Shown in pieces: positions 38,697 to 59,131 of a stretch of DNA of 64,000 nt; position 1 is the first letter of the stretch, and each line of letters starts with the position of its first letter. The notes below the pieces were generated by a model that was not told the DNA's origin, made no database searches, and was given only the letters and a program-made list of their open reading frames with translations. Both the position numbers and the translations under genes were made by a program. Source of the DNA: Powellomyces hirtus (taxonomy: Eukaryota > Chytridiomycota > Chytridiomycetes > Spizellomycetales > Powellomycetaceae); the NCBI GenBank assembly GCA_025526995.1, contig JAHLKG010000034.1, positions 1 to 64,000 of the forward strand, given 5' to 3'.

Positions 38697-40084
38697 ATGA
38701 TTCGCACAACATCATTCCCCGATCACAATGACAGGTGGCCCCCGAAGAAAAGAAGACGAAAGAGGTAAGATGCCGTTCTTATTATGAGTCCACAGCCAAT
38801 CTCACAGCATGTTAATGCATTGTCGCTTTCCAGGCCGCCCTGTCCACAGGATGCCAATGCTCCGTTTCCTGCACCTCCCCCACCGCCTGTCAAACCCCCA
38901 CCCTTTGTCCGTCGAGTTCCTGCCAGCCTACTTTGGAATCTGTTTGCTGACGACGATCCGGGAGACCCAAGCTCCTCTTCCAGCGACGACAATGAATCCT
39001 TCAGCTCGGAGTCTCCCGAATCTCCTCTGACCGACCCACGATCCGACAGAGAATGAGGAGGTGGAAGCTTCGAGATCCTCCCGCGTCTAGTGTGGTCAGC
39101 AACTAGGGCCATCTTGATGCGGCCTGGATTGGCACGGCTGCGCAGTTGACGAGATTACGGTCATACGTCGCAGCAATGCATCGACTTGCCCAACATGGGA
39201 CATGGGCTATCAAGTTCTGGCTGATGCAGATTGCGCCGAACGCTGCCTTTCCAGTCATCGACGAGGAACATGTACAGATTGTTCTCACACTTCTCCAAAA
39301 CCCTGCATACAACCCTCGCGCGCCAAGAAAGGTAGCAATCACAACAGTTCTCCGCCCTATCATGCTGCAATACACAACGGCGGCCAGATTTGCTCCCTCC
39401 AGAGTGAATCATGGGTCCTTTATCCAGAATGGGATTAACTTCACCGCAACCAGCATTGTCTCCAACATCAACACCAACATCAAAATGCATTTTTGCAATC
39501 AGGTGCAATCTTACATCAACGGGCGGTTGGGTGTCAAGGAGCTGACTCGAATATTGGCCCGGCGACCATGGTCACGACCGAATGCGTGTGTGGCCATCCA
39601 TCGGCTCTGGAGGGCGGCTGCAATCGTCAAGAAATACGGACTCTCGCCTGAAGCTGCGTGGCAATCCCAAGACACACTTGCCAACCTGCAGTCCAACTTG
39701 ACATCCTTGGAGTTCGAAGTCCTTGAGGAAGTCTGGGCACTGCTGCCTGACCGTGCTTTCAACTTGTGGACTGGGGCCGGAAACAGAGAGTCTGATGTTA
39801 AAGTGGACGTGGACGTTGTCATTTCTCCCGAGAGATACGTGCGTGCCTATCTGAATCTTGCCCGCGGATTTGAAGCTCGGGGGTTCCCTCTTTTCAACGC
39901 GCTTCCATTGCGGCGTCGTCATATACTGGCGTACACGACCATTGACACAAAGTTGCTCTGGGATGCAGTCCTCCAGAAGTCGCACCGCAAGCTCAGCCTT
40001 AAGGGTCAGCACCACCGGCTCTGGGGAGAGTGCTTCAATCTTTCGCATTCCGCCTTCCATCAACGGGGTCGCACCGTATATCAG
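38697..40084 (+). CDS. Fanzor (eukaryotic TnpB-like nuclease), 5' exons
   Basis: Start of the split Fanzor gene. The proposed first exon (38697-38764) begins MIRTTSFPDHNDRW and carries a strong nuclear localisation signal, PPKKRRRKR, which continues across a 69-nt intron (38765-38833, GTAAGA to TTCCAG). The second exon is Pro-rich (APPPPPVKPPPF) then Ser/Asp/Glu-rich and meets a TGA at 39054; its junction with the next exon is unclear. The main exon is open from 39107 (after TAG acceptor-like CAACTAG) to the donor at 40085 and encodes about 326 residues of the N-terminal helical domain. It ends RGRTVYQ, which joins in frame to FDGTISTDG at 57372 when the interrupted intron is removed. Unresolved: true start, and whether the 39054 stop is a mutation. 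Confidence 0.68.
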
Positions 40085-40126
40085 GTTTGAGGACAAGCCG
40101 AATCTTCCGTGCCCATACGGGGCACG

Positions 40127-40383
40127 TGTTGAGGTTGGAGTTTTGAGATAAACCTGTCAAATCGACAGCGCTCCAAGACTCCACGTGACCCCCGCTGCGC
40201 AATGGTGCTTCATCTGACCGCGTATGCTTAGATAGCTTGCACAGCCACCTTTCTTCTTTGTAGTGTAGATCTCTTTCACCCATCGTTTACACCTAACAAC
40301 AACACAATCATCCCATTGTCATTAAGATTGTCGAGCTAGCTTTCCTCTGTTGCACTACACCTTAACCGGACCTATGCACAACA
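40127..40383 (+). repeat. Copia-3 5' LTR
   Basis: 257 bp, TGTTGAGGTTGG to ATGCACAACA; the ends form the inverted repeat TGTTG/CAACA. The left flank GCACG is the target duplication. Confidence 0.92.
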
Positions 40384-40397
40384 GGTTATGAGCCCTG
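40384..40397 (+). other. Copia-3 primer-binding site (half-tRNA type)
   Basis: GGTTATGAGCCCTG abuts the LTR. It is complementary to the anticodon arm of initiator tRNA-Met (CAGGGCTCATAACC), not to a tRNA 3' end. Priming by a tRNA-iMet half is known for Drosophila copia and yeast Ty5. Confidence 0.75.
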
Positions 40398-40464
40398 TCA
40401 GCCCGCCCAACGCTTAAAACGACAAGCATCCTGCATCCTTCTTCACGTTGCTCAATACTCAATC

Positions 40465-42138
40465 ATGCCATTGTCCCGTAGCCCCATTCGGACCAGGTCC
40501 GGAACAAACACTGCCCCTGCACCGACGCAGGATTCTGCAGATGAGGGTCCTCACAGTGAGGACAACAAGAGTCGAGCCGCTTGACCTGACGACGAGGTCG
40601 TCACCAAGGAGTATTTGGAGAAGGCGCTGTTGGAATCCCAACACATTATCGCCGAAATGCAGGAACGCATGCTGCTGGAATCGCAGCAACTCGCCGCTGA
40701 GTCACAAAGGGAGTCTCAGCACCTTGCAGCTGAATCCCAATGAGAGATGATGGAGAAGATGATTTCTACCTTTGCACAAATGCAAATGCAGACGGCCGCC
40801 GCTGCAAACCCTCATGTCTTCCCGGAGGACCGCCCACACTCTCGCTCATCAGAGAATTCTTCTCCCACGTCGTCCTCAATGAATTCCGTCGCAAAGGAGC
40901 TCCTTAAACAAGTTCCCAACTTTGATGGCAATATGAGTAGCCCGCAATTACTTCTCGAATTCATTGCAAAACTGGACGACTTTTTCGAGGTTGCATACCT
41001 TCCGCCACTTCTCGAAGCAAAAATGGCGGTAAGCAAACTCACATCTACCGCTCACATCTGGTGGAGGACCCAGGAAAGCCAGGGGACCGCCCCTCGAACA
41101 TGGAACCATCTCAAAACAACGTTACGCCTGAGATTCACACCACCAGCGTTCAGCTCGATGATCCGTGATAAACTGGATGATCTTTCGCAGACCACGTCGG
41201 TCATTGCATACAACAATGCGTTCAACAAACTTGTCATGCAGATTCCCGACATGAACAAAGGAGAAATCGAGCATTGCTATCTCAAGGGACTCAAGCGTCC
41301 TATCTACTCAGCCATCATCTCAAAGGATCTCTTGGATCTGGACGCCATGCAGGAAGCCGCAATCCAACAGGAACAGCTTACCTCAGAACGGGGCGCTTGT
41401 GTGCCCAAAACCGAGTCTCACGTTGAAGCCCATGTGATGCATGGCAATTCGGACGCCAACACCAATGAACACGCGCCTCAAAAATCGTGGAAAAAACAAC
41501 ACCGCCGCTCAGTTCCAGGATCTCCCTGCCTCCTCTGCGAACAAACCGGTCATTGGATGAAGGACTGCCCGAAAATGAAGGACGCGCGCGAGCTCCTTAA
41601 ACAACATCAGCAAGAACCTGCTGCCGAAGTAAACCTCGTTTTGGCAACTAACCACAGGTCCTCGCATTCAATCGCCCTCGATTCTTGCGCAACGCACCAC
41701 ATTATCAAGGATGCTATTCTCCTTACTGACCTGCGACCCATCCCGGCAGTCCAAATCAGCGTCGCAAACGGCGAAAACCTTACCGCTTGCGAAGCAGGCA
41801 CACTCACCATCAGCAATAACAACACGGACGAAGCCATTGTCTGCGTTGATGTGCTCTACGTACCTGAAGCGAGCCGCAACTTGGTTTCCACATCGCCACT
41901 GAACCGGGACGGTTACGAAATCACGTTCTCAACTAACGGTTCATCCATCCTAAAGAACGGCCTCGTTATCCTACCGCTCCGCCACAACGGAAACCTGCCA
42001 TTTATCAATGGTTATGTTGAAACCACCGCCGCTGCTTTTGCGACCGAAGCTGCAAAACAAAGGACTGCAATGTCTATAAACTATGGCATCAACGCTTTGG
42101 GCACATTGGACAACGAGCGCTTCATGCTGCGAATCTGA
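40465..42138 (+). pseudogene. Copia-3 Gag and protease, broken
   Basis: The frame starts at ATG 40465 (MPLSRSPIRTRSG). It has a Gln/Glu-rich coiled-coil segment with repeats of ESQ (about 40630-40740), a Ty1/Copia-type Gag (DFFEVAYLPPLLEAKMAVSKL, WWRTQESQ, IPDMNKGEIEHCYLKGLK), a CCHC knuckle CLLCEQTGHWMKDC and an aspartic protease (ALDSCATHHII). TGA codons at 40582-40584 and 40741-40743 interrupt it; the second stands where a repeat unit just upstream has Arg. A frameshift at about 42075 separates it from the integrase frame, whose GAG-pre-integrase motif LWHQRFGH is read one frame over from about 42078. Confidence 0.88.
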
Positions 42139-44759
42139 TCTACTCTCTCGATCTGCCAAACAACGTCGAACCGGAACACACGCTGTGCTCCGGCTGCTCC
42201 CTCAGTAAATCCACTCGGCTGCCCTTCAATGGGCAAAACTCTCGACCTGCAACCAAACCACTTGATCGCATACACTCGGACATTCTTGACATGGGCGCCA
42301 ATCTTCTCTCCCTCTCTGGCGCCCGCTACATCCTCACGTTCATTGACGAATACACACGGTATTCCGTCATCTACCTCCTCAAGACCAAAGATCAAACCAA
42401 CAATTATTGGCAAAACTATCGCGCGTACGCTGAACACCATCTTGACTCCAAGATCAAGGAGCTGCACTGCGATAACGGCGGTGAATACTATCCCCTACAG
42501 GCTGAGCTGCTCGCCGATGGGATCACGTTAAACCCTACTCACCCGTACTCCTCTCAGCAAAATGGCATTGCTGAACGGTTCAACCGTACGCTCATGGACC
42601 AGGTCCAAGCGATTCTTCATGACAGCCGCGCTCCTTTCAAACTTTGGGGAGAACTCGCTATGGCCGTCAACTACCTGCGTCAACGGACGCCATCAACGTC
42701 TCTCAACGGAGAGACCCAATACCAACGTTGGTTTGGGACCCCTGCCGATGTATCGAACCTTCGCACCATCTGGAGCGTGGCCTATATGCATCAACCTGTG
42801 CGCCGTCGCACACACCGCAAGCTCGGAGCTCGCGCTGTCGGACCGTTCCGACTAGTGGGATATCACCCCACTAAACAAGGCAACTATCACCTTTATGATG
42901 CATCGACGGATTCGATCATCGGCGCACGAGACGTCACAATTAACGAGGCTGATTACGTCAGCCCTGTCGCTCAGAGCGACACTACTCCTGAATATGTGGT
43001 TGGGCGCATCTTACTCTCTCGCAACGGCGAAGGGGGAGAGGAATTCCTGGTCAAGTGGCTTGGCTACGACGAACCAACATGGAAACCCCTCGACAACGTC
43101 AAGGATTCAGAGGCCCTGATGCGGTTCACGGGAATCGAAGATGACGGCACACCCGTAATCGCCGAACTGCATGCCGCATGCAGCACTGACATTGACAAGC
43201 CCGCCACTTACCAGGCGGCAATCAACTCGCCATATGCAAAAGAGTGGAAACAAGCGATCGTCGCTGAACTCTCATCTCACCGCACTAACAAGACGTGGGA
43301 CACGGACACCACGCAAACACCGTCTGGCACTCACCTTGTTGATTCTAAATGGGTCTTCAAAGTCAAACGCAACGCCGATGGTTCCATCAAGAAGTTCAAA
43401 GCCCGCCTCGTCGCCCGAGGCTTCACGCAGCGTGAAGGCATTGACTTCAACGAAACATATGCGCCCGTCGTCAAGTTTAACACCTTGCGGGCGCTACTCA
43501 CGCTTGCCGCTAAGCTCGACCTCCACGTCCATCAGATGGATGTCATCACCGCATTTCTCAACGGAGATCTCGACGTAGAAATCTGGATGCGGCTCCCAGC
43601 CGGCATCGCTGACGATGTCGTCAAACTACGCCGTTCCCTTTACGGCCTTAAACAATCGCCGCGCCTATGGAACAAGGTTCTCGACTCCTTTCTTCAACAG
43701 CTCGGGTTCTCAGTATCAGAACTTGACACTGCGCTCTACATTAAGCGGACTGACAACACAAAGATCCTGATTGTTGCCGTCTACGTGGATGATCTCACGA
43801 TTTTCGCATCAAACCTCGATGACATGCTCGCTCTCAAATCCGCGCTTGCCGAACGCTTCAAGATGGAGGACATGGGGGAGATCTCTTTCCTTCTTGGTCT
43901 TCAGATTACGCGCGACCGGTCAAAGCGATGCATTACCATCGGCCAACAGAAGTACATCAAAGACATGATCGACAAGTTTAACCTTAACGGCATGCGGCCG
44001 CATCACATCCCGATGGACCCGACCTTACATCTAAATGCGCACGATGGAGCCGACGTCCTCGACGCATCAGGAATCAAGGAATATCAGTCGATCATTGGAA
44101 CACTAATGTATCTGATGTTAAGGACTCGCCCTGACCTGGCCTACTCAGTCTCCCGCTTATCTCAGTTTCTGGCAGCACCGACGGCCGCACACATGACGGC
44201 TGCAAAGAAAGTTTGCGCGTACGCAAACACAACCAGTGATCTCTCTCTTGTCTTCAAAGATGGGGGAGATATTGTCGGATATTCGGATGCCGACTACGCA
44301 CGCTGTACGGACACGCGTCGCTCAACCTCCGGCTATGTATTCATGCTCAACGGAGCTGCCATTTCATGGAAATCTCAACGTCAAAAATCAATGGCGCTAT
44401 CCACAGCAGAAGCAGAATACATTGCACTCACGGAATGTGCAAAGGAAGCACTCTGGATCCAGGGTCTCCTATCCGAACTGTCAGCAACGGAGCAGACAGC
44501 AGTTCTCATCTATAAGGACAATCAGGCCGCTATCAAGCTTGCTGCCAATCCAACGCATCACCAATGAACCAAACACATTGATGTCCGTTATCACTTCCTG
44601 CGAGACCTCGTCGGTAACGAGCGCATTCACCTACAGTACATTGAGTCCAAGCTCATGCTGGCTGATGCCCTGACGAAACCACTACCTCGCCCATTACTTG
44701 ATGATCTGAGACACCGAACTGGACTCCGAACGAAATCAGATTACGCCAAATCTCATTGA
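42078..44759 (+). pseudogene. Copia-3 integrase, chromodomain, RT and RNase H
   Basis: The frame reads LWHQRFGH and a Cys pair (CSGCSLSK), then the integrase core (FIDEYTRYS, LHCDNGGEYY, QQNGIAERFN). A complete chromodomain follows at about 42991-43128 (YVVGRILLSRNGEGG, FLVKWLGYDEPTWKPLDNV). Then RT (QMDVITAFLNGD, YVDDLTIF at about 43782) and RNase H (GYSDADYARCTDTRRSTSGY, STAEAEYIAL). A single TGA at 44565-44567 replaces the Arg of the family motif H-x-RTKHID; the frame then continues to TGA 44757-44759. The order PR-INT-RT-RH is diagnostic of Ty1/Copia. The chromodomain between integrase and RT is unusual for that group. Confidence 0.92.
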
Positions 44760-44777
44760 TATACACCCGTTATAAGT

Positions 44778-45009
44778 CTAGTTGAAATACACCCGCCGCA
44801 ACCACCATCTCAATCGACGGTCCGACTTGTTGCATTTCGGGCAACGTATTTCTCCACTTCAATGCACCAGACCCCGTGAACAGCTCTCACACAGAAAACA
44901 GGGGTTTCTTTCTCCACAGGCGTGCAGCGTCTGACAGTCTTTTCTTTCGTAACACCTGTCACACCGCCTTCTCGTTACTTCCCCTTCAAAGAAGTTAACC
45001 CACTCCTCT
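44778..45009 (-). pseudogene. RING gene inside copia-3, exon 2
   Basis: The minus-strand frame reads REEWVNFFEGEVTRRRC, RCYERKDC, CFLCESC, RCPKC and ends LRWWLRRVYFN (TAG at 44780-44778). It aligns without gaps over its first part to exon 2 of the free copy at 36014-36248. A TGA at 44861-44859 falls opposite an Arg codon (CGT) of that copy. It is convergent with copia-3 pol, with 18 bp between the stops. The acceptor (CACAG) is at 45010-45011; exon 1 is at 56928-57079, with copia-2 inserted in the intron. Confidence 0.8.
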
Positions 45010-45044
45010 CTGTGCAATGCGAGATATCAGTACCCTGAAACCAG

Positions 45045-45415
45045 TATTAGAGATATCGGCGTTTCCAGTACTTTATCGGAAATGCAGAGGATTGGCCGAA
45101 TTCGATGTGGCCTCCAGTATACTTCGTAAAGGGGGGTTACAGAGCTCTTCTGTGATGCAGATGACGGTGGAGCGTTGTCAGTTGCACGGAGATGTAATGT
45201 ATGTGAATGTAATTTTATGTCTTAAAGTCTTATTGGTAATGTCTCGCTTCAAGCGTTCTAATCTACTTTTTTTTTCTCCAATCACGTGATCACACGTGAT
45301 CCAATTCAGCTCTTAGCATTACCGGTATGGTGGTCACGCGTTCTAGTCGGAGAATCCAAGTAAGGATCTAATGTAAGGGCCAGACGTTGAGTACGCAAGT
45401 CTCAACATTCCAATA
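45045..45415 (-). repeat. Copia-2 3' LTR
   Basis: 371 bp. In element orientation it starts TATTGGAATGTTGAG and ends ATATCTCTAATA, so the ends are TATT/AATA rather than TG/CA. Left-hand target copy ACCAG at 45040-45044. Confidence 0.92.
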
Positions 45416-48139
45416 CACCCCCTGTCCAAGCAATCGATCCGTGATGATGGGATTTTACTCATTTGGGAGCTCCGTCATGGACGCTTTCGTCATTGGCATG
45501 ATGGTGTTGTCGTAGAGCTTGATGCACATGCTTTCGCGATGGTATTTGAATGCCGGGGCCGGTAAAGGCTTTGTAAGTGAGTCGGCTACCATTTCAGCGG
45601 TGGGTAAGTACTCCAGATGAATCTCCTTGTCGATGTGATCACGAATGAAGTGATGTCGAATGTCGATGTGCTTGGTACGGGCGTGATGCACGGGATTCAT
45701 TGCCAACGAGATGCATGACTGATTGTCTTCGTAGATCGTTGTAGGTCGAGCATTTTCATCGAGATATTTGGGGATTTGGAGTTCTTGCAGAAGTGAGCGA
45801 AGCCAAATTGTCTCTTGAGTGGCGAAGGAAAGTGACATGTATTCAGCTTCGGTAGATGAGAGAGCAACGGTGGGTTGGCGCTTCGAAGCCCAAGTAACGG
45901 GGCCCGCATTTCCAATGTAGAAAAGGTAGCCAGTGATTGACCGTCGATCAATGATGTTGTTTCCCCAATCGGCATTGCTGTAGCCGTGAAGGGTGACGTT
46001 ATTTCCGCCGATGCAGAGGCTGTAATCTGATGTTCCCCGTAGGTAGCGAAGAACGCGCTTTGCAGCTTGCAGATGTTGAGGCGAAGGGTTGCTTGCAAAG
46101 CGAGAAAGCATACTGACTGCGACAGCGATGTCAGGACGCGTGCATATCATCAGGTACATGAGAGAACCAACGCTTTCGCAATATTCTCCTTCTTGCGGGT
46201 TAGGTGAAGTCTTTGTATTTTCGACTTCGTAGGGTTCGAGCTTGGTCTGGTCCATCGGAGTGTTGACGGGCTTGCAATCTTGCATACCAAAGCGCTCAAG
46301 GATGTCATTTACATATGACTCTTGATCGAGATAGATGACGTGCCTTGAGTAATCGCGTCGAACTCTCATTCCTAGGTAGTGGTTGACTTCGCCTAGGTCT
46401 GTCATGTTGAACTCGTTGTGCAGGGATGTCTTGATTGACGAGATTTCTGATTTGGTCTTTGCGAAAATGAGGAGATCGTCAACGTAGACGGAGATGTACT
46501 GCAATGAGTCACTTTCAGGTAGAGTTCTGATGTAGACGGCATTGTCATTTGCCAGGCGCTTGAATCCCAAAGAAGTCAGTTCTTTGTGAAGTAGGGAGTA
46601 CCATTTGCGCGGGGCTTGTTTCAGACCGTAAAGGGCCTTTCGGAGTCAAAGGATGGTCCCAGGCGGAAAGCCAGAGCCTTCAGGGGCATAGATTAGGATG
46701 GTCTCGGTAACAATCCCATTCAGGAATGCGGTTACTACATCCATTTGATGGCATTTCAAGCCTAGACTGGCGGCGAGAGCGAGGAGGACGCGTTGGGTGG
46801 CTATCTTGGCAACCGGAGCGTAGGTTTCGTTATAGTCGATACCGTAGCGTTGTTCGAAGCCTTTCACTACAAGCCGGGCCTTGTATCGTTGGGGTTGACC
46901 ATTCAGGTCTCGCTTGATCTTGAATACCCATTTGGTGCGGATGGGCCGTTGATTGTGCGGTAAGGATTTGGGGTTAATGACTTCCCATGTATCATTGGTA
47001 TGAAGGGACTTCAATTCGGCATTTATGGCCTCGGTCCACTTTGGCGTGTCGTCTGATGAGAGCGCTTGTTTGTAGGTTTGGGGTTCTTCGGTACTTGCAG
47101 CCAAAAGAGCGCTCGCCGTCTTCTCGTTGATGTAGTCAGCAAAGACCGTCAAATGATTGACATTTTCGAGCGGTTCCCATGTATTATCTTCGTCTTCGAA
47201 TCCTAGCCATTTGCAGAGGAATTCGGGGCCTTCCGGGCCATCACATGAGTCAAGAATCTCTGTGACTTCGTAGAGTTCTTTGGGCGGGATGTAGTCTTTT
47301 GCTAGTTCGAGTGCTGAGGTTTCGACGAACGTTACATTGCGAGAAATGACTATTTCTTGACGGTTGTCATCCCAACAGCGGTAAGTGCCGTCAAATTCGT
47401 AACCGATGAGTTTGAGACGTGTGGCGCGCGGTGCCAACTTTGAGACTTGTTTTCTCTTGACGAGATGCACGAAGGCATCGGCCCAAATCACACGAAGGTG
47501 AGAAAGTGAGGGCTCTTTGCCGTTGAGCCGTTTGTACGGCGAAATGTTGTTATTGGACTTGTGGGGTAGGCGATTCCGTAAGTAGACTGATGTAGCCGCT
47601 AACTCGGTCCAGAGTTGTTTTGGGATGCCGTATGAGTGTTCCAATGAACGAATGGTGTCAAACAGGGTGAGGTTGAACCTTTCAGCTACACTGTTGGACT
47701 GTGGGGAATCTGCAGCGGTGAGTTCGTGCAGAATGCCCTTTTTCGAAATGAATTCTTTCAGATCGTGATTGACAAACTCCCCCCCTCGATCGGAATGAAG
47801 TCGTCTGACCCATTCGTTGGTCTGATTTTCGATGAAATTGATGAATTCAATCAATTTTGCAGTAGATTCGCTCTTCGTCTTCAAGAAGAAGATCCATGTG
47901 AAGCGTGAATAGTCATCGATCACAACGAGGGCATATTTCTCATCGCCAACCGCGGGTATGTGCGGACCGTTTAGGTCAAAATGTAGGCGATTGAGTGGCG
48001 TCTTGGACCGTGTCATCGTACCGTTAAATGGTGAGCGCTTGTGCTTACCAAACTTGCAACCTTTGCAGACCTCGTTGGTCAATGGGAGCTTGAGTGGCTT
48101 CATGATGTGAGTGCCAGGATGGCCCAATCGGTGATGCCA

Positions 48140-48420
48140 GAGGGTTCCTTCGTTGACAGAGGAAAAGGGACCAGAACCAGCCCCAGAAGAAGCCGCTGAA
48201 GCAGCAGCGGAGGCAGTGCTAAAGCTGCCTGCGCCCTCTGCAGGGGTGCGTGCCCCCCCCCATCTCCTTTCCAAGAGCACCGAGGGGGGGGCCCCTCGGT
48301 GCTCTTGGAGGGGGAGGAGGGCATCTTCAGTGAGGATGGGGCTGACGTTCCCTGATGGGGCCGACCAGCCCCGATTTGGGGCGGCCGGCCCCTCCGTCGT
48401 GGCTTGGATCGGAGTAGAAC
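48140..48420 (-). repeat. GC-rich foldback segment inside the copia-2 polyprotein frame
   Basis: 48271-48308 is a perfect 17-bp inverted repeat (arms CCAAGAGCACCGAGGGG and its complement) around GGGG. An imperfect second palindrome (GGGGCCGACCAGCCCC, GGGGCGGCCGGCCCC) lies at about 48356-48392, next to Ala/Ser-coding repeats. It stays in frame and codes a Gly/Ala/Ser/Pro spacer between protease and integrase. It may be an insertion. Confidence 0.7.
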
Positions 48421-50085: not shown

Positions 50086-50090
50086 ATCGA
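50086..50090. other. Target-site duplication of Gypsy B2 (ATCGA)
   Basis: ATCGA at 50086-50090 and 56296-56300. The uninterrupted site in copia-1 reads GGTAGATCGAGGCATTGA (26838-26855). Confidence 0.93.
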
Positions 50091-50503
50091 TGTGAGGTGC
50101 CTATGTTTCAAGGCGGGAGGTTGTTATGATCGAGCGAGAAGGTAAAGGAAGATGGAAGAAGAAAGAGAGAGAGAGAGTTGTTTGTTCTGATGCGGATGTC
50201 GGTATATTGATGGATGATCCTCTCTACGGGGGTTCTTTCCTTCTCATTTATATATATGAGGTTCTCGGGTTCTTAGTCTCTAACTAACTTGTGGAGAACG
50301 GGGAGATCATCTAGGGATTATGGCAGTGCAGCGACGGCAGTGCAGCTGCGCAGTACTGAGACCGCGGGGTAAACTTGTGGGGAGTTCTGCTTATGAGGGA
50401 TTGGGTAATCGCTTATGAGGCGCGTCTGCCTTAACTTGGGATATGGCTTTTTACTAGCCGAAAGATAAGTAAAGTATAAATATGTCATGATGGTCATCTC
50501 ACA
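50091..50503 (-). repeat. Gypsy B2 3' LTR
   Basis: 413 bp, plus-strand ends TGTGAGGTGCC and CATCTCACA. The adjacent polypurine tract at 50504-50518 (minus AGAGGCAAAGGGGGG) is identical to that of B1. Confidence 0.93.
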
Positions 50504-50784
50504 CCCCCCTTTGCCTCTTGGGCTTTAGTACAGGAGGCATGAGCTTGCTGAGCCGCAGGTCGAGCTCCCATGCGATCGTCAGCTGCTGGCTTGCCATAGG
50601 TCGAGCTCCCATATGGTGTCAGCTCCTGGTGCAGCGCTTAGGCTTACACTGGCTTCAATCTCTCTGTCGAGTAGATTGGTACATCGAAACCCCGTCGGGC
50701 TCGGTAAAGTTCGGCTCATGGCCAGGACAGGGAGCGGCTCCTAAGCGGCTTTATCCTTTGAACAGGGAGCTATTGCTTTGTTCG

Positions 50785-53700
50785 CTATCTAAGCGGGAAA
50801 GGGGGATTGTTGACTCGCCATATCTCGAACGCTTCTGTGTCTTTGAGATTGGCTTCGGGTTGCCAGGAGGGTTCGGGCCAGCCGATGTATTTGGTCAGGA
50901 ACATTCGGCGGCGAGCTCGGCCTCGGCCGGTTACGGTCTCATCGAGGATGGCTTCGACTGGGTATTCAAGTTCCCCTTCAACGAGGACCGGCTCTGGCAG
51001 AGGTGGTGTTTGATCGCGGAGTGGGTGCGTGGGGGGCACATGCTTCCGTAGTATGTTAACATGAAAATAGGGCCAGATCGCTTTGAGAACCGTTTGGGAG
51101 AGGTCTAGGCGATATGTGTCTGGATGAGGTCCTTTGGCCGATATTGTGAATGGCCCGATCCACTTGGGTGTGAGATTGGCAGGTTTAACTTGGTCGAAGT
51201 TGATCGCTAGTTGTTCACGGTTGAGGTCAACGAGATCGCCTACTTCGAACGCAATGGGAGTGCGTCCTTGGTTGAAGTATTGTTCGTAGCGATCTTGTTC
51301 GTCACAAAGCGCTTGCTGCACCGTGAGATTGATATCTGTGGCTCGTTCTTGATATAGACGAATGAGAGCTCGATTTGGCGGTGTCATTTGGGCGAGTTGT
51401 TCTGGGTTTGTGTTCCAGCCTGGGGGTCGTGGCATTCGGTTGAGTTCGATTTCGAATGGGGCGATGCCATTAAGATGGCGCCGAGGCATGGAATTAAGGC
51501 AGAACTCGACCAATGGTAGGAATTCACGCCAATTGGATCCGCTGTAATCGAGGTATTTTCGTGTGACGAACTTAGCAACGTGGATCATTCTTTCTACTCG
51601 GCCGTCAGTTTGTTGATGTCGTGCCGTAGCAAACTCATGTCTGACGCCGGTTAATTTGGCAAAGGCGGAAAAGAGGTCTGCCAATAACCTGGGTTCTCGG
51701 TCGGATATTATGAGGAGGGGTATGCCGGTATGTTTCCAAGCTTGGCTCACGATGAGGGTCATTAACTTGTTTGTAGAGAGAGTGCTTTCCGCAGGGACTA
51801 GGTGTGTTCGACTTGATAAATAGTCGACGATGCATATGATAAACGGACGCTCGGAGCTTCCTCGAGGTCGAGGTAACTCGAAGAGATCGAACCCATGAGT
51901 GTGATTAACTGTGGATGGTATTGGGAGTGGTCTTAGGAGGCCATTGCGTAGTGGACGCGAAAATGAACGGCATTTGGCACAGGTTCGGACAAAAGAGCGA
52001 ATATCCTGTTGCATCTTGGGCCAGAAGTATCGACGCAACATCTTAGCATACGTAACTAATGGCCCTTGATGTCCACCATTAGGAAGTTCATCATGGAACT
52101 CTCGGAGAACGTGTGGTCTAATCGTATAAGGGACGTAAAGCCGTTCGCCTTCGTACGTGATGATTCCATCGGATCGTATGGTGAATCTGCAATAACGACC
52201 GGGGCGCTCATGCTCTGGTTTTTCGAGCATTTTGGTGATGTGGAGCGCATATTCGTCTTGGAGCAATTCGTCTTTCCATTCCTCGAATCCAAATGTAGTG
52301 GGGAATGGATGCTCACTGGTATTCATGTACGCTGTGATCATTAGTCGTTTTTGACATTCGATGCATCGTGGTGCATATGTAGGGTTCCTCGAGAGTAGAT
52401 CAGCGATTGTATTGAATCGACCGGGAAGATATTGAATCGAAAAGTCGAATTCTTGTAGCGTTTCAACCCATCCGGCTTGGCGTTCACTCAGGTGTGGTTG
52501 CGTTTGCAGGTGCACAAGTGATCGGTGATCAACAAGAGCAATGAAGGGCCGATTAATCAAATAGAACCGGTTTGTTTTGAGAAACTTTACAAGGGCTAAT
52601 AGCTCTTGCTCGTGTACCGGATATCGGGTCCCGGCTCCATTCATCTTACGCGAGAAGAAGAGTACTGGACCAAGTTTGGGCAATTGTTCCATAGCTCGTA
52701 CTCGGTGAATCGGTAATGGCATGGGGAGAGGTTCTCCATTAGGGGTTTGTCCAAGCCATCCGGAGATGGCGTAACCAGAGGAGTCGGTGTGGACATAGAT
52801 TGATTGATCGGGATTGAAGGTCGCTAGGACGGGAGCGTTTGTGATAGCAGCCTTGAGAGCGTCGAAGGCTTCTTGCTCCTTGGCCGTCCATCCGAAAGCG
52901 CTTTTGACGCTTTGTAAAGCTGATAGTGGTGCCGCAATTTTGGCATATCGCTCGATGTAATCGAGAAAGTAGTTCGTTAGTCCCAGAAATTGCCGAATGT
53001 GTCGAGTAGTCCGGGGGGTTGGCCAATCTCGAACGGCTGCGATCTTGCTGTCCGCAATTCGCATGCCATTGATACTGAAGAGATGGCCGCAGAATTCAAT
53101 TTCCTTTTGTCCCCATTGACATTTGCCAGCATTGACGTAGAGTGAGTGATCTTGTAGCCGTTGAAGGACTTCCGCTACATCTTGACGATGTTTGTTAGGG
53201 TTGGGCAAGAAGATGAGGATGTCGTCGAGATAGCAAATGACGCAGATATTGTAAAGGTCGCCTAAGACTTGATTCATGAGTCGTTGAAAGGCGCCAGGTG
53301 CATTGCAAAGCCCAAAGGGCATAACGACATATTCGAAGAGTCCAAATCTTGTACGGATGGCCGTTTTCTCGCAATCTTCCGGAGCAATGAGCAGTCGATG
53401 GTATGCGTCCTTCAAGTCAATGAGCGTATAGAAGCGGGCGCCGAGAAGTTGGTTACGCATTTCTCGAAGATTGGGAAGGGGAGTGCGGTCCTTAATTGTA
53501 ACGGCATTCAGTCCACGATAGTCCCAACAGACGCAAATTCCGCCCGTTTTCTTGACAGCGAAGACGACTGATGCTCCCCATGGTGACTTCGAATGTTGAA
53601 TCCATCCTTTTGAGAGGAGGTGATCTAGTTGTTTCCGTAGTTCGCTCAGTTGATCTTGTGATATAGGACGTAATGCCTGGAAGACCGGTTTCAATCCGGG

Positions 53701-54543
53701 GATGATGTCGATATGGAAGTTGTTATCGCCGCGATCGGGAGGTAACTCATCGGTTTCCTTAAAGAGAGTATTCTCAAATCGTCAAAGAACTGAGTCGAGG
53801 AATTTAGGCCAAGAGGAATCAGTCTCGGCCTTATTCTCTTTGGTAATAGGACGTATATGAACTGCGAATGCTTCCCGATATTGCTTATGTCGCAGTTGTT
53901 TGTTGAATCGTTTTGATGAAATGGCGGCAATACCCTGAAATGGTTTCTGTCGCTCGCGTTTGACGTCTTTGGCGGCTCCGTGGATCGTAAAGGTTTGAGC
54001 TCTCTTGATGAATGAATCAAGATTTTGAGCGTGTCCTTTGGATGGGAGCGATGAACAGTTGAAGGGTTTGCCATCCAAGGTAAACAAGATGCGGTGTGGT
54101 CGTTTGACAGTAATGCAGGTGAAAGTACCAATCGCCTCAAAGAATGGGAGTCCCAAGATGAGCGGGATTCCAATTAGTGCGATTTCGAAATGGAAGGAGG
54201 CGACGGGATCGTAGTCTTGTGATATGTTATTGAAGATTCGAATGGATTGGGTCGTAAGGAATGAAATTTGGATGGTTTGACCAGCACCAGCAGTATCAAT
54301 GCTATAAGGTTTGTTCAGGGGTCTTTTCTCGAGTTTTCGTTCGCTAGTGATGCGGTCTTGAACGACCATAGTATTGCAGCCGGTATCTAAGAGGGCTATA
54401 ATTGGGTCGGTACCCATCTTGACTCGAAAGACCCAGCTAGGTGCACTCGAAGCCTTGCCGGGTTGAAGTCGGGCTTGAAAGTCCATTTGTCGAATGGATG
54501 TAGAATTGCCCTTAGGGCTTTCAGGTGGTCGATTGCATGTCAT
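50785..54543 (-). pseudogene. Gypsy B2 Pol (single in-frame stop)
   Basis: From 54543 the frame reads MTCNRPPESPKG, protease (ALLDTGCNTMVVQD), a connection region, then TGA at 53784-53782 where B1 has CAA. The remaining 969 codons are open: RT (DLKDAYHRLLI, YLDDILIF), RNase H (YVHTDSSGYAISGW), zinc-binding integrase (GGHQGPLVTYAK, CAKCRSF), catalytic Asp in CIVDYLSSR and LIISDREP, Glu in QQTDGRVER, and a terminal chromodomain (FLTKYIGWPEPSWQPEANL). It aligns with B1 Pol throughout. Apart from the stop this is an autonomous-looking Pol and the best-preserved Gypsy copy in the window. Confidence 0.93.
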
Positions 54544-54605
54544 CCATGGTATATCGGATTCAAGGAAGATAGTATGTCCCTTATTGAGCTGAGAGAAACC
54601 GATTT

Positions 54606-55808
54606 CTACTCCCAGCCGTCCAGAAAATCCTGTTCTTGCTCATCGGTTTCGACTTCACTGATCCGATTGATTTGTCGGACAGGATAGTTGCTACCGGTGG
54701 CTCGTTCTTCAAGAGTTTTGCCGTTGACGTCTCGTTTGGCAAAACAATCTTGGATGGTGTGATTTGTTCGTCCACATCGTTTGCAGAGCATTGCACTTCC
54801 CCGCTTTGTTGGAGTTTTAGGAGTACCTGGAGTCCTGGGGAATGCTGGTCTGCGTGTAGGAGTTTGTTGTGGAGCCGTAACTGGGGTTGGCACGCCAGAT
54901 CTCTTCTTTGGTGTCTGCGGAATGGATTGTTTGGATGTTTGCGATTCTGTCGTTGTCCTTCGAGGAGTAATTGGTGCGGGTTGTTGAAAAGCCCGTCGAG
55001 GGGTACGAGAGGGGGCTTGTTCAATGCCCGAGTAAGGATGGAATCGGGCGGGGGTCTTGGCTTGTGCTCGTGCTGGGGTAGTAAGGTAGCCATCGACCAG
55101 ATTGCGGGAGGCTGCGGCATTTCGGACACAGATTACGGCCAGGGGCCAGGTGACGGCTTGGCCGATGGTAAGTCTCATTGTCATGAAGTTTTGAAGGGCT
55201 TGGACAAGGTAAAGACCGTAAGTCGGGTTTCGGAGAAGTCCTGCACGGAAAATGTCGATCATCTTGCTTTCGAGTAGAAGACGCTCGGTAGCATTGCCAT
55301 TAGCGCGCACGGCAATGGTCTCGAGATGTCGATATCGTTCGAGTTCGCGGATATAGTCTTCAAGTGAGTTCCCAAGCGAGAGGGCCGCCATTTCTTGATG
55401 TAGGCGGTTGGTGACATTGCGAGGCATCCATCGTTGATAGAATTGGGTGGCCCACCAGGCAGCAACGCCTTCGGCAGGGGCAGCAGGTTGAACACGAAGG
55501 TTGTTCATAATAGCGACGTGCCAAGCGACGACTGAAGGGTCCATGTTGGTGATGGCGTATTCGTCAAAGTAGTTGAATTCGTTATAAGCGATGGCTGTAT
55601 AAGCCGTAATGAAATGGTTGCATGCCCTGACATTCGTAGTGACGAAGAGGTCGATCAATTCCATATCATGCTCGCCAGAGAAGTAAGGAATCGTCTTCGT
55701 ATTGGCGACAAGGGTTGTACGCAAGGTGATTTCGCTGAGCCGATCACCGTTTTGGAGGGCAGGGCCTACGGCAGGGAAGGTCCAGGCGGCAGGTCCAGGT
55801 GCAGCCAT
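54606..55808 (-). CDS. Gypsy B2 Gag
   Basis: 400-codon intact frame starting MAAPGPAAWTFPAVGPALQN. It has a capsid-like helical core, a basic TPRR/TPKK linker and the CCHC knuckle CKRCGRTNHTIQDC. It has the same length as B1 Gag with scattered substitutions. The ATG lies 74 bp inside the 5' LTR. Gag ends at TAG and pol begins about 60 bp further on. Confidence 0.94.
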   Translation of the reverse strand: MAAPGPAAWTFPAVGPALQNGDRLSEITLRTTLVANTKTIPYFSGEHDMELIDLFVTTNVRACNHFITAYTAIAYNEFNYFDEYAITNMDPSVVAWHVAIMNNLRVQPAAPAEGVAAWWATQFYQRWMPRNVTNRLHQEMAALSLGNSLEDYIRELERYRHLETIAVRANGNATERLLLESKMIDIFRAGLLRNPTYGLYLVQALQNFMTMRLTIGQAVTWPLAVICVRNAAASRNLVDGYLTTPARAQAKTPARFHPYSGIEQAPSRTPRRAFQQPAPITPRRTTTESQTSKQSIPQTPKKRSGVPTPVTAPQQTPTRRPAFPRTPGTPKTPTKRGSAMLCKRCGRTNHTIQDCFAKRDVNGKTLEERATGSNYPVRQINRISEVETDEQEQDFLDGWE

Positions 55809-55866
55809 CGTGAATCACTCTGTTTCAATCAAAAGAGCAAGGGTAGATGAGTTTGACAGGAAAGAA

Positions 55867-55882
55867 CCTGGTGGTGCTACCA
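55867..55882 (-). other. Primer-binding site of Gypsy B2
   Basis: Minus strand TGGTAGCACCACCAGG directly inside the 5' LTR, the same core as B1 (tRNA-iMet-like acceptor end). Confidence 0.7.
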
Positions 55883-56295
55883 TGTGAGATGCCTATGTTT
55901 CAAGGCGGGAGGTTGTTATGATCGAGCGAGAAGGTAAAGGAAGATGGAAGAAGAAAGAGAGAGAGAGAGCTGTTTGTTCTGATGCGGATGTCGGTATATT
56001 GATGGATGATCCTCTCTACGGGGGTTCTTTCCTTCTTGTTTATATATATGAGGTTCTCGGGTTCTTAGTCTCTAACTAACTTGTGGAGAACGGGGAGATC
56101 ATCTAGGGATTATGGCAGTGCAGCGACGGCAGTGCAGCTGCGCAGTACTGAGACCGCGGGGTAAACTTGTGGGGAGTTCTGCTTATGAGGGATTGGGTAA
56201 TCGCTTATGAGGTGCATCTGCCTTAACTTGGGATATGGCTTTTTACTAGCCGAAAGATAAGTAAAGTATAAATATGTCATGATGGTCATCTCACA
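55883..56295 (-). repeat. Gypsy B2 5' LTR
   Basis: 413 bp, matching 50091-50503. Contains TATATATATGAGG at about 56040 (minus-strand CCTCATATATATA), a likely promoter core. Confidence 0.93.
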
Positions 56296-56414
56296 ATCGA
56301 GGCATCGATATTAACGTCTTCTTCAGCGTCAGGACCCCGTTGGACTTCTCGTGTGGCTTGACGGGCTTGTTGGCGGGTCTGCACTCCTTGAACGGGAGAT
56401 CTTGCAGTAGGCAT
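56296..56414 (-). pseudogene. Copia-2 gag, first codons
   Basis: ATG at 56414 gives MPTARSPVQGVQTRQQARQ and reads to IDASIYHDSHDAD across the Gypsy B2 insertion, continuing at 50090. Confidence 0.85.
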
Positions 56415-56515
56415 CTTGACGGTGTGCTCGGTACTTTCTTGGCGCTTGAATTTCAACGGAAGACTTGTAGTTTACAGGTTTTGCGAAGGGAGAATGATTC
56501 GAATTTGACCGGTCT

Positions 56516-56529
56516 CAGGGCTCATAACC
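56516..56529 (-). other. Copia-2 primer-binding site (half-tRNA type)
   Basis: The plus strand is CAGGGCTCATAACC, the initiator tRNA-Met anticodon arm, directly inside the 5' LTR. Same as copia-1 and the mirror of copia-3. Confidence 0.75.
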
Positions 56530-56900
56530 TATTAGAGATATCGGCGTTTCCAGTACTTTATCGGAAATGCAGAGAATTGGCCGAATTCGATGTGGCCTCC
56601 AGTATACTTTGTAAAGGGGGGTTACAGAGCTCTTCTGTGATGCAGATGACGGTGTAGCGTTGTCAGTTGCACGGAGATGTAATGTATGTGAAGGTAATTT
56701 TATGTCTTAAAGTCTTATTGGTAATGTCTCGCTACAAGCGTTCTAATCTACTTTTTTTTTCTCCAATCACGTGATCACACGTGATCCAATTCAGCTCTTA
56801 GCGTTACCGGTATGGTGGTCACGCGTTCTAGTCGGAGAATCCAAGTAAGGATCTAATGTAAGGGCCAGACGTTGAGTACGCAAATCTCAACATTCCAATA
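56530..56900 (-). repeat. Copia-2 5' LTR
   Basis: 371 bp, ending in ACCAG target copy 56901-56905. Contains the inverted motif ATCACGTGATCACACGTGAT. Confidence 0.92.
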
Positions 56901-56927
56901 ACCAGCACAACGGGGCTCCTTCCTCAC

Positions 56928-57079
56928 CTGCAGATAACACATCTGCGTGCGGCGTCGTCAGGTGTCACCCAAATGTACTTCAAACACCAGAAGCACAGCA
57001 GGTGCCCGCAGTCCCCACAGAATTCGGCATCTCGAAAAAGACAAACGGGACACTTCGGAGCTCGACCGTTTTGTGGCAT
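56928..57079 (-). CDS. RING gene inside copia-3, exon 1
   Basis: ATG at 57079 gives MPQNGRAPK, then a RING (CPVC, CGDCGHLLCFWC, CVIC) ending at a GTGAGG donor (56927). Homologous to exon 1 at 35810-35946, including intron position and phase. Spliced to 44778-45009 it would give 127 residues with one internal stop. The likely role is an E3-like RING protein; the target is unknown. It starts 25 bp from the copia-3 3' LTR and runs antisense to the element. Confidence 0.8.
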
Positions 57080-57103
57080 GTTTGGTCTCCAAAGTCGGGG
57101 GAG

Positions 57104-57360
57104 TGTTGAGATTGGACTTTTGAGATAAACCTGTCAAATCGACAGCGCTCCAAGACTCCACATGACCCCCGCTGTGCAATGGTGCTTCATCTGACCGCGT
57201 ATGCTTAGATAGCTTGCACAGCCACCTTTCTTCTTCTTAGTGTAGATCTCTTTCACCCATCGTTTACACCTAACAACAACACAATCATCCCATTGTCATT
57301 AAGAGTGTCGAGCTAGCTTTCCTCTAATGCACTACACCTCAACCGGACCTACGCACAACA
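57104..57360 (+). repeat. Copia-3 3' LTR
   Basis: 257 bp, TGTTGAGATTGG to ACGCACAACA, preceded by polypurine tract AAAGTCGGGGGAG and followed by GCACG. The mismatch with the sequence to its left shows it is not a solo LTR: the GCACG partner is at 40122. Confidence 0.92.
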
Positions 57361-57371
57361 GCACGCACCAG

Positions 57372-58606
57372 TTTGATGGCACCATATCGACAGACGGCAA
57401 AGGCATATCTGTCATGCTCAAATCACCTCTCGCATCCAAAGCCGGCAGAGGTGGCCCAAAAAAAAGGATGACTAAGGCGATGAGGAAAACCAAGCTGAGA
57501 CGGATGTACATCGATCATCCCGCAAATCTTACTCGCCTTCAACAAGTTGATGCCGCTGCATCAAGGCGCCGGATCATCTTGATTGACCCCAACAAGCGCG
57601 ATCTTCTGTTCATGAAGGAGTTGCATCAACCCGGCGTTCAGGGTGCCAACGCTTGGAGGACTATGCGGTACACATCATCCCAGCGAGCGAATGACACGAG
57701 GGAAAGAAGGACGCGTTGCCACCAGCTGTTTCTCAGATCAAAGCCTGCTCCATATCCACCAGGCTTGGTGGGGCCGCGCCAACGGATTGAGGACATCGAA
57801 CGAGAATCCCCTTCGCACGCCACTATGAATGTGAACAGCTTTCGAGATTGGCTTACATGGCGAGCAGACGTTGATCCCCTTCTCTCAGAATTCTATGCTG
57901 GCAGTATGTGGCCTGATGTCACAGGACCAAACATCGACGACTTCAAGATCTTGTCGATGTTGTCAATGTCTGTCGACTAATGACTGTCTCCGCACCTCTA
58001 GCATCCCTCCGTAAAAGCGAAAACTGGTCACTTATGAAGCTCAATGCATTTTGGCTTCGTCAGCGGTCTGAAGACTTGCTGATTCAGCGCATGCGGGCAT
58101 ACTTTAGCCCCAAGCTCATGGTCGTGTTGGGTGACTGGCAAAGTGAGTCATGTGCCAGGCACAAGAAGTTTCACGCTCCGACAAAGGTTGCAGGTTTCCA
58201 AAAGCTTTTCAACAAGCACCACATACCTTGCTTCCTCATCGATGAGTTCAGAACTTCTTCCTTTTGCCCTCTTTGCCACAATCGCCTTTCCAGGAACGTC
58301 CTGCCAAAGCGCCCCTCTGCACGGCCGTGGCGGGAGCACATTCTTGAAGAAGTCCATGGTTTGTTGAGTTGTGTGTGTCAGCGCAAGTCTTTTGGTGTAC
58401 TTGGGTGACTAAACTCTCTCTTTCAGCTTGGTTGCGCAGAATGCGCGTCTCCGGCGTGGCCGCCAAGTCCTCGAACAGGGTTGCCATACCTGTACTGGAA
58501 CCGAGACATGGCAAGCGTCAGGAACTTTGATCTCATTGTCCGTTCCATGATTGACGGGAATGACAGGCCAGCCCATCTGAGTAGATCTGAGTCTGAGTCT
58601 GAGTAA
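57372..58606 (+). CDS. Fanzor (eukaryotic TnpB-like nuclease), 3' exons with RuvC and zinc finger
   Basis: Exons 57372-57903, 58002-58372 and 58427-58606, with introns of 98 nt (GTATGT to CTCTAG) and 54 nt (GTGTGT to TTTCAG). They read FDGTISTDGKGISVML, RuvC-I IILIDPNKRD (Asp at 57585-57587), a helical segment (SFRDWLTWRADVD; joined FYAGTSLRKSENWS), VVLGDW, then IDEFRTSSFCPLC (about 58240-58280), the second half of a four-Cys zinc finger (LGCAEC) and RuvC-III YWNRDMASVRN. Asp, then Thr-Ser before a C4 finger, then Arg-Asp, with 189 residues between the first Asp and Thr, is the signature described for Fanzor/TnpB proteins. These are RNA-guided DNA endonucleases spread by transposons. All key acidic residues are present. 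Confidence 0.85.
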
Positions 58607-58630
58607 ATAGTTATAGTTATTCCCCCCCCC

Positions 58631-58686
58631 TTGTCCTGGCCAGTTGACGCTGGCCTGGCCGCACGGCACTTACGTCCCCGGGACAA
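58631..58686 (+). ncRNA. Candidate structured RNA at the Fanzor 3' end
   Basis: Nested inverted repeats: outer TTGTCC (58631-58636) with GGACAA (58681-58686), inner GGCCAG (58638-58643) with CTGGCC (58650-58655) around TTGACG. It starts 24 nt after the Fanzor stop, where guide RNAs of TnpB/Fanzor genes are usually encoded. The structure is seen; the function is inference. Confidence 0.3.
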
Positions 58687-59131
58687 ACGGTGCAGGGGCC
58701 TGAAAACCCTTGCATTCTTGTATCAACGTGTGTAAATACCTCTCTTGGGGTTGTCCTTCAATTCGCTTGTGCAGACCACATTGATGGAAGCTTTGGGTTC
58801 TTTCGCTGGAAGACTGCAATACTTCAAGAATCTTCAATGCCAAGAAGCCATTTCAATTCCAACTTCAATTATACCCAATGCAATTAACATCGCTAGCGTA
58901 GGGAAAGCTTTCTCGCCTCTCCACGGGGAATTCTTCCGAAGATTTTTTGTGGATCTCCATTACAATGTCCCCTAAGACTCTAAGATTACATGAATTGACT
59001 GCTTCGCATTTGAGTGGGGACGGGCTGGATATTCTGGTGATCGTGTGTCAGGGCTGGACTTCTGCAAACCGTAGATATTCACCCCTCTTGTTTGACGCGT
59101 CCTACAGTTTATCTCGTTGTCGAGCCTCTTC
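58687..59131. other. No gene recognised
   Basis: Only short overlapping frames on both strands, none with a domain. Probably the 3' flank of the Fanzor gene and of the convergent chitin deacetylase gene. Confidence 0.5.

Follow-up and report, generated by a model that had tools for sequence, protein, structure and literature searches.

The described systems closest to the locus analysed here are the SPu-1/SpuFz1 elements of the chytrid Spizellomyces punctatus and the Fanzor1 copies CRe-1, CRe-2 and CRe-3 of Chlamydomonas reinhardtii. SpuFz1 is a Fanzor1 with a D, E, D triad and a Cys4 finger (PMC3627910, PMC10432273), the triad residues being given as D383, E541 and D606 (PMC11423790). For S. 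punctatus, PMC10432273 describes 134 “ghost” loci, which are stand-alone right ends without the gene, and it counts, among 11 loci holding additional genes, Gypsy/Ty3 retroelements that lie within Fz genes or next to them. The C. reinhardtii copies are linked to Helitrons whose targets are TTTT, and their 3' ends outnumber complete copies (PMC3627910).

The window, i.e., the whole 64,000-nucleotide stretch of Powellomyces hirtus DNA that was analysed, holds a Fanzor-bearing mobile element (hereafter W) broken by retrotransposons. It shares with SPu-1/SpuFz1 the triad, the zinc finger, the ghost right ends, the putative scaffold followed by a variable flank and the retroelement-hit Fanzors (PMC3627910, PMC10432273), and with C. 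reinhardtii the excess of 3' ends. Compared with SpuFz1, the protein is longer, is encoded with introns, and has a proline-rich N-terminus and a 16-residue stretch before FDGTIS; the outer insertion is copia instead of gypsy, and a search for the left inverted repeat at 16 loci failed at 15 of them, unlike in the S. punctatus ghosts, which are described with both inverted repeats (PMC10432273). We assign a probability of roughly 0.9 to the reading of W as a decayed Fanzor1 copy of SpuFz1 type, in which a copia element carrying a nested copia and a gypsy was inserted in a coding exon, and whose right end was preserved. The case is largely ordinary: a known nuclease gene, nested jumping genes and a decayed remnant. 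It adds a second chytrid genome, besides S. punctatus, with LTR-hit Fanzor1 copies and persisting stand-alone right ends.

Layout and Identity of the Fanzor Gene

The element and the gene are laid out as follows:

37950..58722, + strand: Fanzor-bearing mobile element W, retrotransposons included; extent set by the DNA in common with paralogues C1 and C23, exactly on the right at CATTCTTGTA, approximately on the left, where similarity fades and no inverted repeat was found
38697..38764, + strand: exon 1, start codon and basic PPKKRRRKR
38765..38833, + strand: intron 1, GTAAGA...CCAG, 69 nt; same stretch omitted by the P0001 gene model
38834..40126, + strand: exon 2, 5' part, N-terminal SpuFz1 match; also compared with C1, C23 and P0001
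40085..40126, + strand: opening 42 nt of the stretch proposed as a 48-nt intron; coding, reads V*GQAESSVPIRGT in W
57366..57903, + strand: exon 2, 3' part, with HQ, FDGTISTDG and RuvC-I IDPNKRD; SpuFz1 match
57904..58001, + strand: intron 2, GTATGT...CTAG, 98 nt, branch-like CTAAT; agrees with the P0002 gene model
58002..58363, + strand: exon 3, RuvC-II glutamate IDEFRTS and first zinc-finger cysteines CPLC; SpuFz1 match
58364..58426, + strand: intron 3; donor TT in W, GT in C1 and C23
58427..58606, + strand: exon 4, second cysteine pair, WNRD, stop TAA at 58604-58606
58634..58722, + strand: right end, up to and including CATTCTTGTA; putative omega-RNA scaffold, with two hairpins in the consensus fold of 18 aligned sequences

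An earlier note, made from this DNA alone, had proposed a Fanzor gene in two halves with its catalytic acids kept, and this part of it stands. Both halves are present (38697-40126 and 57366-58606), as are IDPNKRD, IDEFRTSSFCPLC, the second Cys pair, WNRDMASVRN and, in exon 1, PPKKRRRKR. In a sequence search, three pieces of the gene matched S. punctatus SpuFz1 (8gkh) in order, beyond what chance would give: 39107-40084 over the N-terminal part (E 2.2e-25), 57372-57902 over the RuvC-I part (E 1.1e-11), and residues 41-153 of the frame 57917-58405 over the RuvC-II/zinc-finger part (E 1.4e-21). The window gene is, as judged by this similarity, a Fanzor1 of SpuFz1 type by descent. IDPNKRD, IDEFRTS and WNRD line up with the SpuFz1 triad motifs, and the Cys4 finger of the NUC/TNB part is represented by CPLC and GCAEC, aligned via P0003 and SpuFz1; the paralogue C4 has WNRG in place of WNRD. 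No Fanzor family appeared among the Pfam matches of the three window pieces, nor among those of P0001 and P0003; the precomputed label PF26935.1 on P0001-P0004 is absent from the matches in the Pfam library scanned.

Two kinds of relatives serve for comparison. C1 and C23 are uninterrupted paralogues (94-96% identity) that supply the empty site. The P. hirtus proteins P0001 (75% identical over 72% of the query) and P0002 (77% over 58%) are predicted gene models that may belong to another locus than W; both include the 16 codons claimed as an intron, and the models end early or leave the frame. The intron before SLRKSEN runs from 57904 to 58001, in agreement with the P0002 model, so that IDDFKILSMLSM, previously taken as exon, is intronic.

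The Nested Retrotransposons

The 17.2 kb between the Fanzor halves consist of three LTR elements, one inside the other: a copia outermost, then another copia, and a Ty3/gypsy innermost:

40122..40126, + strand: target-site duplication GCACG, left copy
40127..57360, + strand: outer Ty1/copia, 5,373 bp without the nested insertions; LTRs 40127-40383 and 57104-57360, 11/257 positions differing
45045..56900, - strand: second Ty1/copia, inside the first; 7/371 positions differing between its LTRs, 45045-45415 and 56530-56900; duplication ACCAG
50091..56295, - strand: Ty3/gypsy, inside the second copia; 6/414 positions differing between its LTR matches, 50090-50503 and 55882-56295; duplication ATCGA
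57361..57365, + strand: target-site duplication GCACG, right copy

The outer element is confirmed as a copia; its LTRs measure 257 nt, and a GCACG flanks it at either end. Paired LTRs, the 5-bp target duplication and an integrase before RVT_2 place it in Ty1/copia, its rve match (28.9 bits) lying below the Pfam cut-off of 32.6 and those of RVT_2 and SH3_retrovirus above theirs. Its LTR family has at least 40 copies in the genome, its own two counted, and full elements of the family show an LTR spacing of 5,116 bp, which with 257 gives the 5,373 bp of the outer copia. All three elements resemble known Ty1/copia and Ty3/gypsy in their LTRs, short target duplications and gag-pol, with integrase before RVT_2 in the copias and the order RT, RNaseH, integrase in the gypsy; both copias have a chromodomain match after the integrase, unlike standard Ty1/copia.

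LTR divergence is highest in the outer copia, at 0.044, than which the nested elements have less (0.019 and 0.017); this fits the nesting order. The distances of the two inner elements do not separate their ages. The first copia would have entered the coding exon upstream of RuvC-I, parting Thr from His in the codons for G-T-H-Q and duplicating 5 bp; the second copia would then have entered the first, and the gypsy the second. LTR insertions are present in 3 of the 6 near-complete Fanzor copies (W, C5 and C4), which may be an excess.

The Claimed 48-nt Intron

The earlier note had placed the insertion inside one intron, leaving the exons untouched. A literal, in-frame GT...AG stretch of 48 nt does appear when the element and one GCACG are removed, and an ancestral intron of that length could have taken up the retrotransposons, the gene being then silenced, or spliced across 17 kb, with intact exons. 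The kept catalytic acids agree with such a history, and so does SpuFz1, which has no long stretch here: about four residues only separate the flanking conserved blocks, so that a protein with 16 residues excised is conceivable. Nonetheless, the same 48 nt are open and coding in C23 (VRGQAESSVPIRGTHQ), P0001 (LRGQAESSVPILGSHQ) and P0002 (LRGQAKSSVPVRGMHQ), and their final codons form a G-x-H motif that is also kept in SpuFz1 and, just before F-[DE]-G, in P0003; at the same place C4 reads AGTHR followed by one extra nucleotide, and C19 reads T-H. C1 and C23 are indeed uninterrupted, with the two ends 48 nt apart as the empty-site check had anticipated, but what lies between them is exon, and the insertion sits within it, splitting G-T-H-Q after its Thr codon, shortly before FDGTIS.

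The splice signals point the same way. In place of the Val whose codon begins with the proposed donor GT, the P. hirtus proteins carry Leu, making a GT impossible there, and the donor in W (GTTTGA) is weak. No branch-like YTNAY motif was found within the 48 nt, which is weak evidence because intron 3 of W also lacks one. Frame-keeping GT..AG pairs of 30-120 nt that skip the TGA within this stretch number 7, against a mean of 7.43 in 500 letter shuffles, the reading frame and that one stop being the only features scored. An apparent intron of 66 nt in C4 has a different position, 5' of its GTH codons. With the other disabling changes in W, these observations make an ancestral intron very improbable.

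A later origin of the splicing has also been considered, in which the 48 nt turned into an exitron in the W/C1 lineage only, escaping a new TGA, and the copia landed there afterwards. W and the paralogue C1 do share the TGA, and both retain the GT and the AG; yet both are broken elsewhere, leaving little selection for such an escape, and the missing branch-like motif and chance-level dinucleotides tell equally against it, so that we give this scenario hardly any credence. The claimed 48 nt are best read as exon, without the marks of a spliceosomal intron. What falls is an attractive idea that lacks support, that of Fanzor exons kept whole on either side of a 17-kb intron; the lesson is that decayed exon sequence can yield an apparent frame-keeping GT..AG.

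Decay of the Window Copy

W does not hold an intact reading frame. Besides the insertion in exon 2, it has in the same exon a 1-nt deletion at about 39024 (relative to C1, C23 and P0001), a TAG stop at 39104-39106 and a TGA stop at 40088-40090, and the donor GT of intron 3 is lost at 58364 (TT); a GT nine bases further on keeps the frame, and the lost donor may be bypassed there. We consider W a pseudogene of the Fanzor family with an insertion in an exon. Given the frameshift, the two in-frame stops and the lost splice donor, it does not make the nuclease. The earlier suggestion that a very long intron is tolerated finds no support here; that the gene is now silent is probably right, on account of these lesions and not of an insertion in an intron.

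The TGA, common to W and the uninterrupted C1, is probably older than the copia insertion, which would thus have hit a copy already carrying one in-frame stop. It could also have arisen twice, since the step from CGA to TGA is a transition at a CpG, a kind of change common here (24 of the 60 private changes in W).

Right Ends and Candidate Omega-RNA

Twenty-eight right ends were found at 27 loci, 19 of them without Fanzor coding. They share a hairpin-bearing sequence, with two hairpin types, and an abrupt boundary followed by unlike flanks, as in W from 58723 on. They are candidate omega-RNA scaffolds, in which case the flank would be the guide. The first hairpin is maintained by paired changes in C4, C5 and C19. 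In the 18-sequence alignment, its covariation comes from one clade of 3/18 sequences, with an RNAalifold covariation term of no more than -0.08, and the fold departs modestly from shuffled sequences (z-scores of -0.7 to -2.0). An Rfam scan of 36500-60500 returned no match at E 0.5.

The conserved right end may instead be terminal DNA for a transposase, of TIR or rolling-circle type. The C6 locus (identical stretch on C40) carries two right ends in inverted orientation, 880 bp apart, as expected of a TIR element; SPu-1 of S. punctatus is described with TIRs and TA duplications, and a subterminal hairpin also suits Helitron-type ends (PMC3627910). A left inverted repeat was, however, not found at 15 of the 16 loci searched (of 27), namely at W, C1, C23, C19, C4, C11 and 9 of 10 stand-alone loci; the left ends may be truncated. 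As these terminal inverted repeats of ~30 nt were not found, W is not filed as an SPu-1 element. The paired changes preserving the first hairpin also speak for an RNA, and the right end of S. punctatus, itself an inverted repeat, is reported to be transcribed as omega-RNA (PMC10432273). We consider the terminal-DNA reading possible but doubtful; it is, in any case, compatible with an RNA scaffold.

As an RNA scaffold, the right end of W, if transcribed, could at most serve in trans. A wider proposal is that a dispersed pool of nuclease-less omega-RNAs is kept, together with the right ends of dead Fanzors, that it guides the C19 Fanzor in trans, and that the scaffold extends ~70 nt into the coding sequence; we hold this to be unlikely. 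If the right ends are transcribed, the question of guides in trans becomes testable in this fungus. C19 is the sole copy seen open throughout outside apparent introns, one of six near-complete Fanzor genes.

From NFDLIV onward, the DNA is nearly invariant among W, C1, C23, C11, C4, C5 and C19. At conserved residues of this final block, identical codons are used at 19/22 positions (W-C19) and 22/26 (C4-C19), against 26/53 and 20/59, respectively, just upstream. Such a contrast, together with the omega-RNA of GtFz1, which overlaps 17 C-terminal codons (PMC10432273), speaks for an overlapping omega-RNA constraint, and against gene conversion or module exchange, as the source of near-identity in the last ~70 nt. 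On the other hand, the block differs in C1b and C23b, whose versions are 89% identical to each other and about 76% to those of C1, C23 and W, with the right-end hairpin still kept, as conversion would allow; we give conversion or exchange about even odds. As a separate observation, the left end of C19 adjoins an LTR.

Identity of the interrupted gene

The interrupted gene of the window (W) is a Fanzor1 gene by its protein matches and, as read from the DNA, a pseudogene with an insertion in an exon; the split by retrotransposons and the family assignment of the earlier note hold, and its intron does not. Three pieces of W match Fanzor1 of Spizellomyces punctatus (SpuFz1, 8gkh), collinearly along the chain:

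39107-40084: 5' piece, SpuFz1 432-711 (E 2.2e-25)
57372-57902: RuvC-I piece, SpuFz1 716-859 (E 1.1e-11)
57917-58405: RuvC-II/zinc-finger frame, SpuFz1 868-981 (E 1.4e-21)

The sole further match in each of these searches was a Parasitella Fanzor 1 (E 0.067 for the RuvC-I piece), and all three catalytic acids are retained, as the earlier note stated. The joined W query matched four database proteins, two from Powellomyces hirtus (75 and 77%), one from Geranomyces (35%) and a weak one (E 1.3e-6). The searched genome comprises 29.26 Mb in 60 contigs, the window being C34:1-64000, and its Bms1-type protein is 98% identical to that of P. hirtus (95% of the query), 80% to that of Geranomyces variabilis and 65% to that of S. 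punctatus. By this measure the host belongs to Powellomyces or stands very near it, among the spizellomycetalean chytrids.

About 42 nt of W intron 2 (57929-57970) are duplicated, at 88-90%, just 5' of the start codon (38649-38690), also in the uninterrupted paralogues on contigs C1 and C23. The stretch 38500-38640, also 5' of the start, is repetitive and dispersed; among its many short genomic matches is a tandem array of ~171-nt spacing (C13:462793-464598).

Nested retrotransposons

The split is documented by LTR pairs and target duplications:

40127-40383 and 57104-57360: LTRs of the outer Ty1/copia, differing at 11/257 sites, with GCACG on either flank
45045-56900, minus strand: second copia, within the outer one; LTRs differ at 7/371 sites, duplication ACCAG
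50091-56295, minus strand: gypsy, within the second copia; LTR match differs at 6/414 sites, duplication ATCGA

Once the elements nested in it are subtracted, the outer copia is 5,373 bp long, and adjacent LTR copies elsewhere in the genome give the identical length (5,116+257; 40 of 90 candidates scored). LTR distances are 0.044 for the outer copia and 0.019 and 0.017 for the two inner elements (the gypsy comparison used here was set one base late, counting 7/414); by this measure the outer copia is the oldest of the three, in agreement with the nesting, and the ages of the inner two are inseparable. In both Ty1/copia polyproteins (42021-44564, plus; 46646-49525, minus), a match to the chromodomain family PF00385 (E 1.1e-6 and 1.5e-10) lies between integrase and reverse transcriptase; in a survey of fungal LTR elements, chromodomains are described for gypsy chromoviruses (PMC3248453).

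The insertion site

The C1 and C23 copies, 94-96% identical to W, are uninterrupted, and the bases flanking the W insertion point run on unbroken in both. The expected empty site is thus present, but the 48 nt (GT...AG) left once the outer copia and one GCACG are removed, which had been taken for an intron, read in C23 as stop-free coding sequence (V-R-G-Q-A-E-S-S-V-P-I-R-G-T-H-Q). The equivalent place is L-R-G-Q-A-E-S-S-V-P-I-L-G-S-H-Q in the predicted P. hirtus protein P0001 and L-R-G-Q-A-K-S-S-V-P-V-R-G-M-H-Q in P0002. The terminal G-T-H(-Q) form recurs as GMH before FEG in SpuFz1, GTHC before FDG in Geranomyces, THC before FEG in the copy on C19, and AGTHR in that on C4, followed there by one extra nucleotide and FDG. 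The copia sits between the T and H codons, so the exons cannot be called untouched.

Within the 48 nt, CGA of C23 is TGA in both W and C1. Frame-keeping GT..AG pairs (30-120 nt) that bypass this TGA number 7 in the joined stretch, against a mean of 7.43 in 500 letter shuffles, 96% of which hold at least one. The intron is rejected on both grounds; that W nonetheless splices it, leaving its exons intact, is very improbable, even though SpuFz1 has merely ~4 residues between the flanking blocks and the P. hirtus proteins coding through the stretch are gene predictions. The motif YTNAY, present in introns 1 and 2 and in an apparent 66-nt intron of C4 lying further upstream, does not occur within the 48 nt, a weak point since W intron 3 also lacks it.

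Other lesions and order of events

Relative to C1, C23 and P0001, W carries further damage:

near 39024: 1-nt deletion
39104-39106: stop TAG
58364: intron-3 donor lost; the frame might be preserved by a GT nine bases downstream

The C1 copy is broken too, and C23 has its own TGA near KL*DPP. W and C1 lie closer to each other (0.040) than either does to C23 (0.052 and 0.054), and the TGA that they share is therefore probably older than the copia insertion; two independent CpG hits are conceivable instead, CpG transitions making up 24/60 private changes in W, 24/56 in C1 and 21/95 in C23. The Fanzor copies (Fanzor parts of window 38240-58722, C1, C23) hold numerous CpG to TpG changes, suggestive of methylated repeats.

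LTR elements occur in three of the six near-complete Fanzor copies, including:

C4:1242999-1243255 (L013:2500-2756): solo LTR of the outer-copia family inside a Fanzor exon, duplication CTTCA
C5:1497834-1514600 (L045, L046): Fanzor split just before RuvC-I by a nested LTR element of ~14 kb, duplication ACGA

C4 has WNRG in place of WNRD, besides further breaks. The uninterrupted sequence for the C5 site is supplied by C19, which is open outside intron-like stretches (putative introns, read by eye). It has a start codon, the three acids and a basic stretch, PPRKKQR, and is immediately preceded by an LTR.

The right-end family

Most worth following is the family of right ends, the conserved 3' termini of the elements. 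A similar terminal stretch is found in the six near-complete copies (C34, C23, C4, C19, C5 and, internally shortened, C1) and in three remnants (C11, C1b, C23b), and DNA and pattern searches of the genome give at least 28 right ends, distributed over 27 loci; genome counts are lower bounds, and the duplicates on C40 and C41 are not included. The two pattern searches returned 12 hits each, and the reversed-pattern control none. The terminus is exactly CTTGTA in 21 of the 28; the others end in CTAGTA, CTTGTT (twice), CCTGTA, CTGGTA, CTTGTG and, once, without such a motif. The 25-nt flanks show at most 52% ungapped likeness in every pair. At 19 of the 28, protein searches detected no Fanzor coding sequence and a DNA search for the coding end was also unmatched; several of these stand-alone copies are similar across a stretch of ~185-295 nt that finishes at the right end.

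Eighteen of the 28 were aligned, leaving out C1 (shortened), C12:778498 (unrelated upstream) and eight later finds. RNAalifold predicted two hairpins, with both-side changes in 2/13 pairs and a small covariation term. Read by hand, the first hairpin stays paired in the C4/C5/C19 group, where C-G has changed to G-C and G-C to A-U; of its seven pairs, one or two are broken in C23b, L038, L042 and the second L042 end.

Of 16 loci searched, a single one has both ends: at C6:1201470 and C40:22870 (L043, L042), two right ends in inverted orientation are separated by 880 bp. Over the 1,700 bp compared, contigs C6 and C40 are identical, so one of them may represent an alternative haplotype.

For S. 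punctatus, Saito et al. report 42 Fz loci, full or partial, 134 ghost loci without ORF, and a 75-nt right-end scaffold with a 14-15 nt variable extension expressed as omega-RNA at four loci; at 11 loci they note additional genes, among them Gypsy/Ty3 lying upstream or downstream of the Fz gene or inside it (PMC10432273). W is a case of the same kind in a related genus, its right end being a candidate scaffold. Compared with the loci as described there, the Powellomyces gene is longer and intron-bearing, left inverted repeats were not found at 15 of the 16 loci searched, and the outer insertion in W is a copia. In the open-access library searched, no paper mentions both Powellomyces and Fanzor.

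In the last Fanzor coding block, each of the eight comparisons of diverged copies shows unusual conservation of synonymous positions (p 1.6e-5 to 0.0072), which would fit an overlapping RNA or gene conversion; the close pairs W-C23 and C19-C5 show no such difference, as expected.
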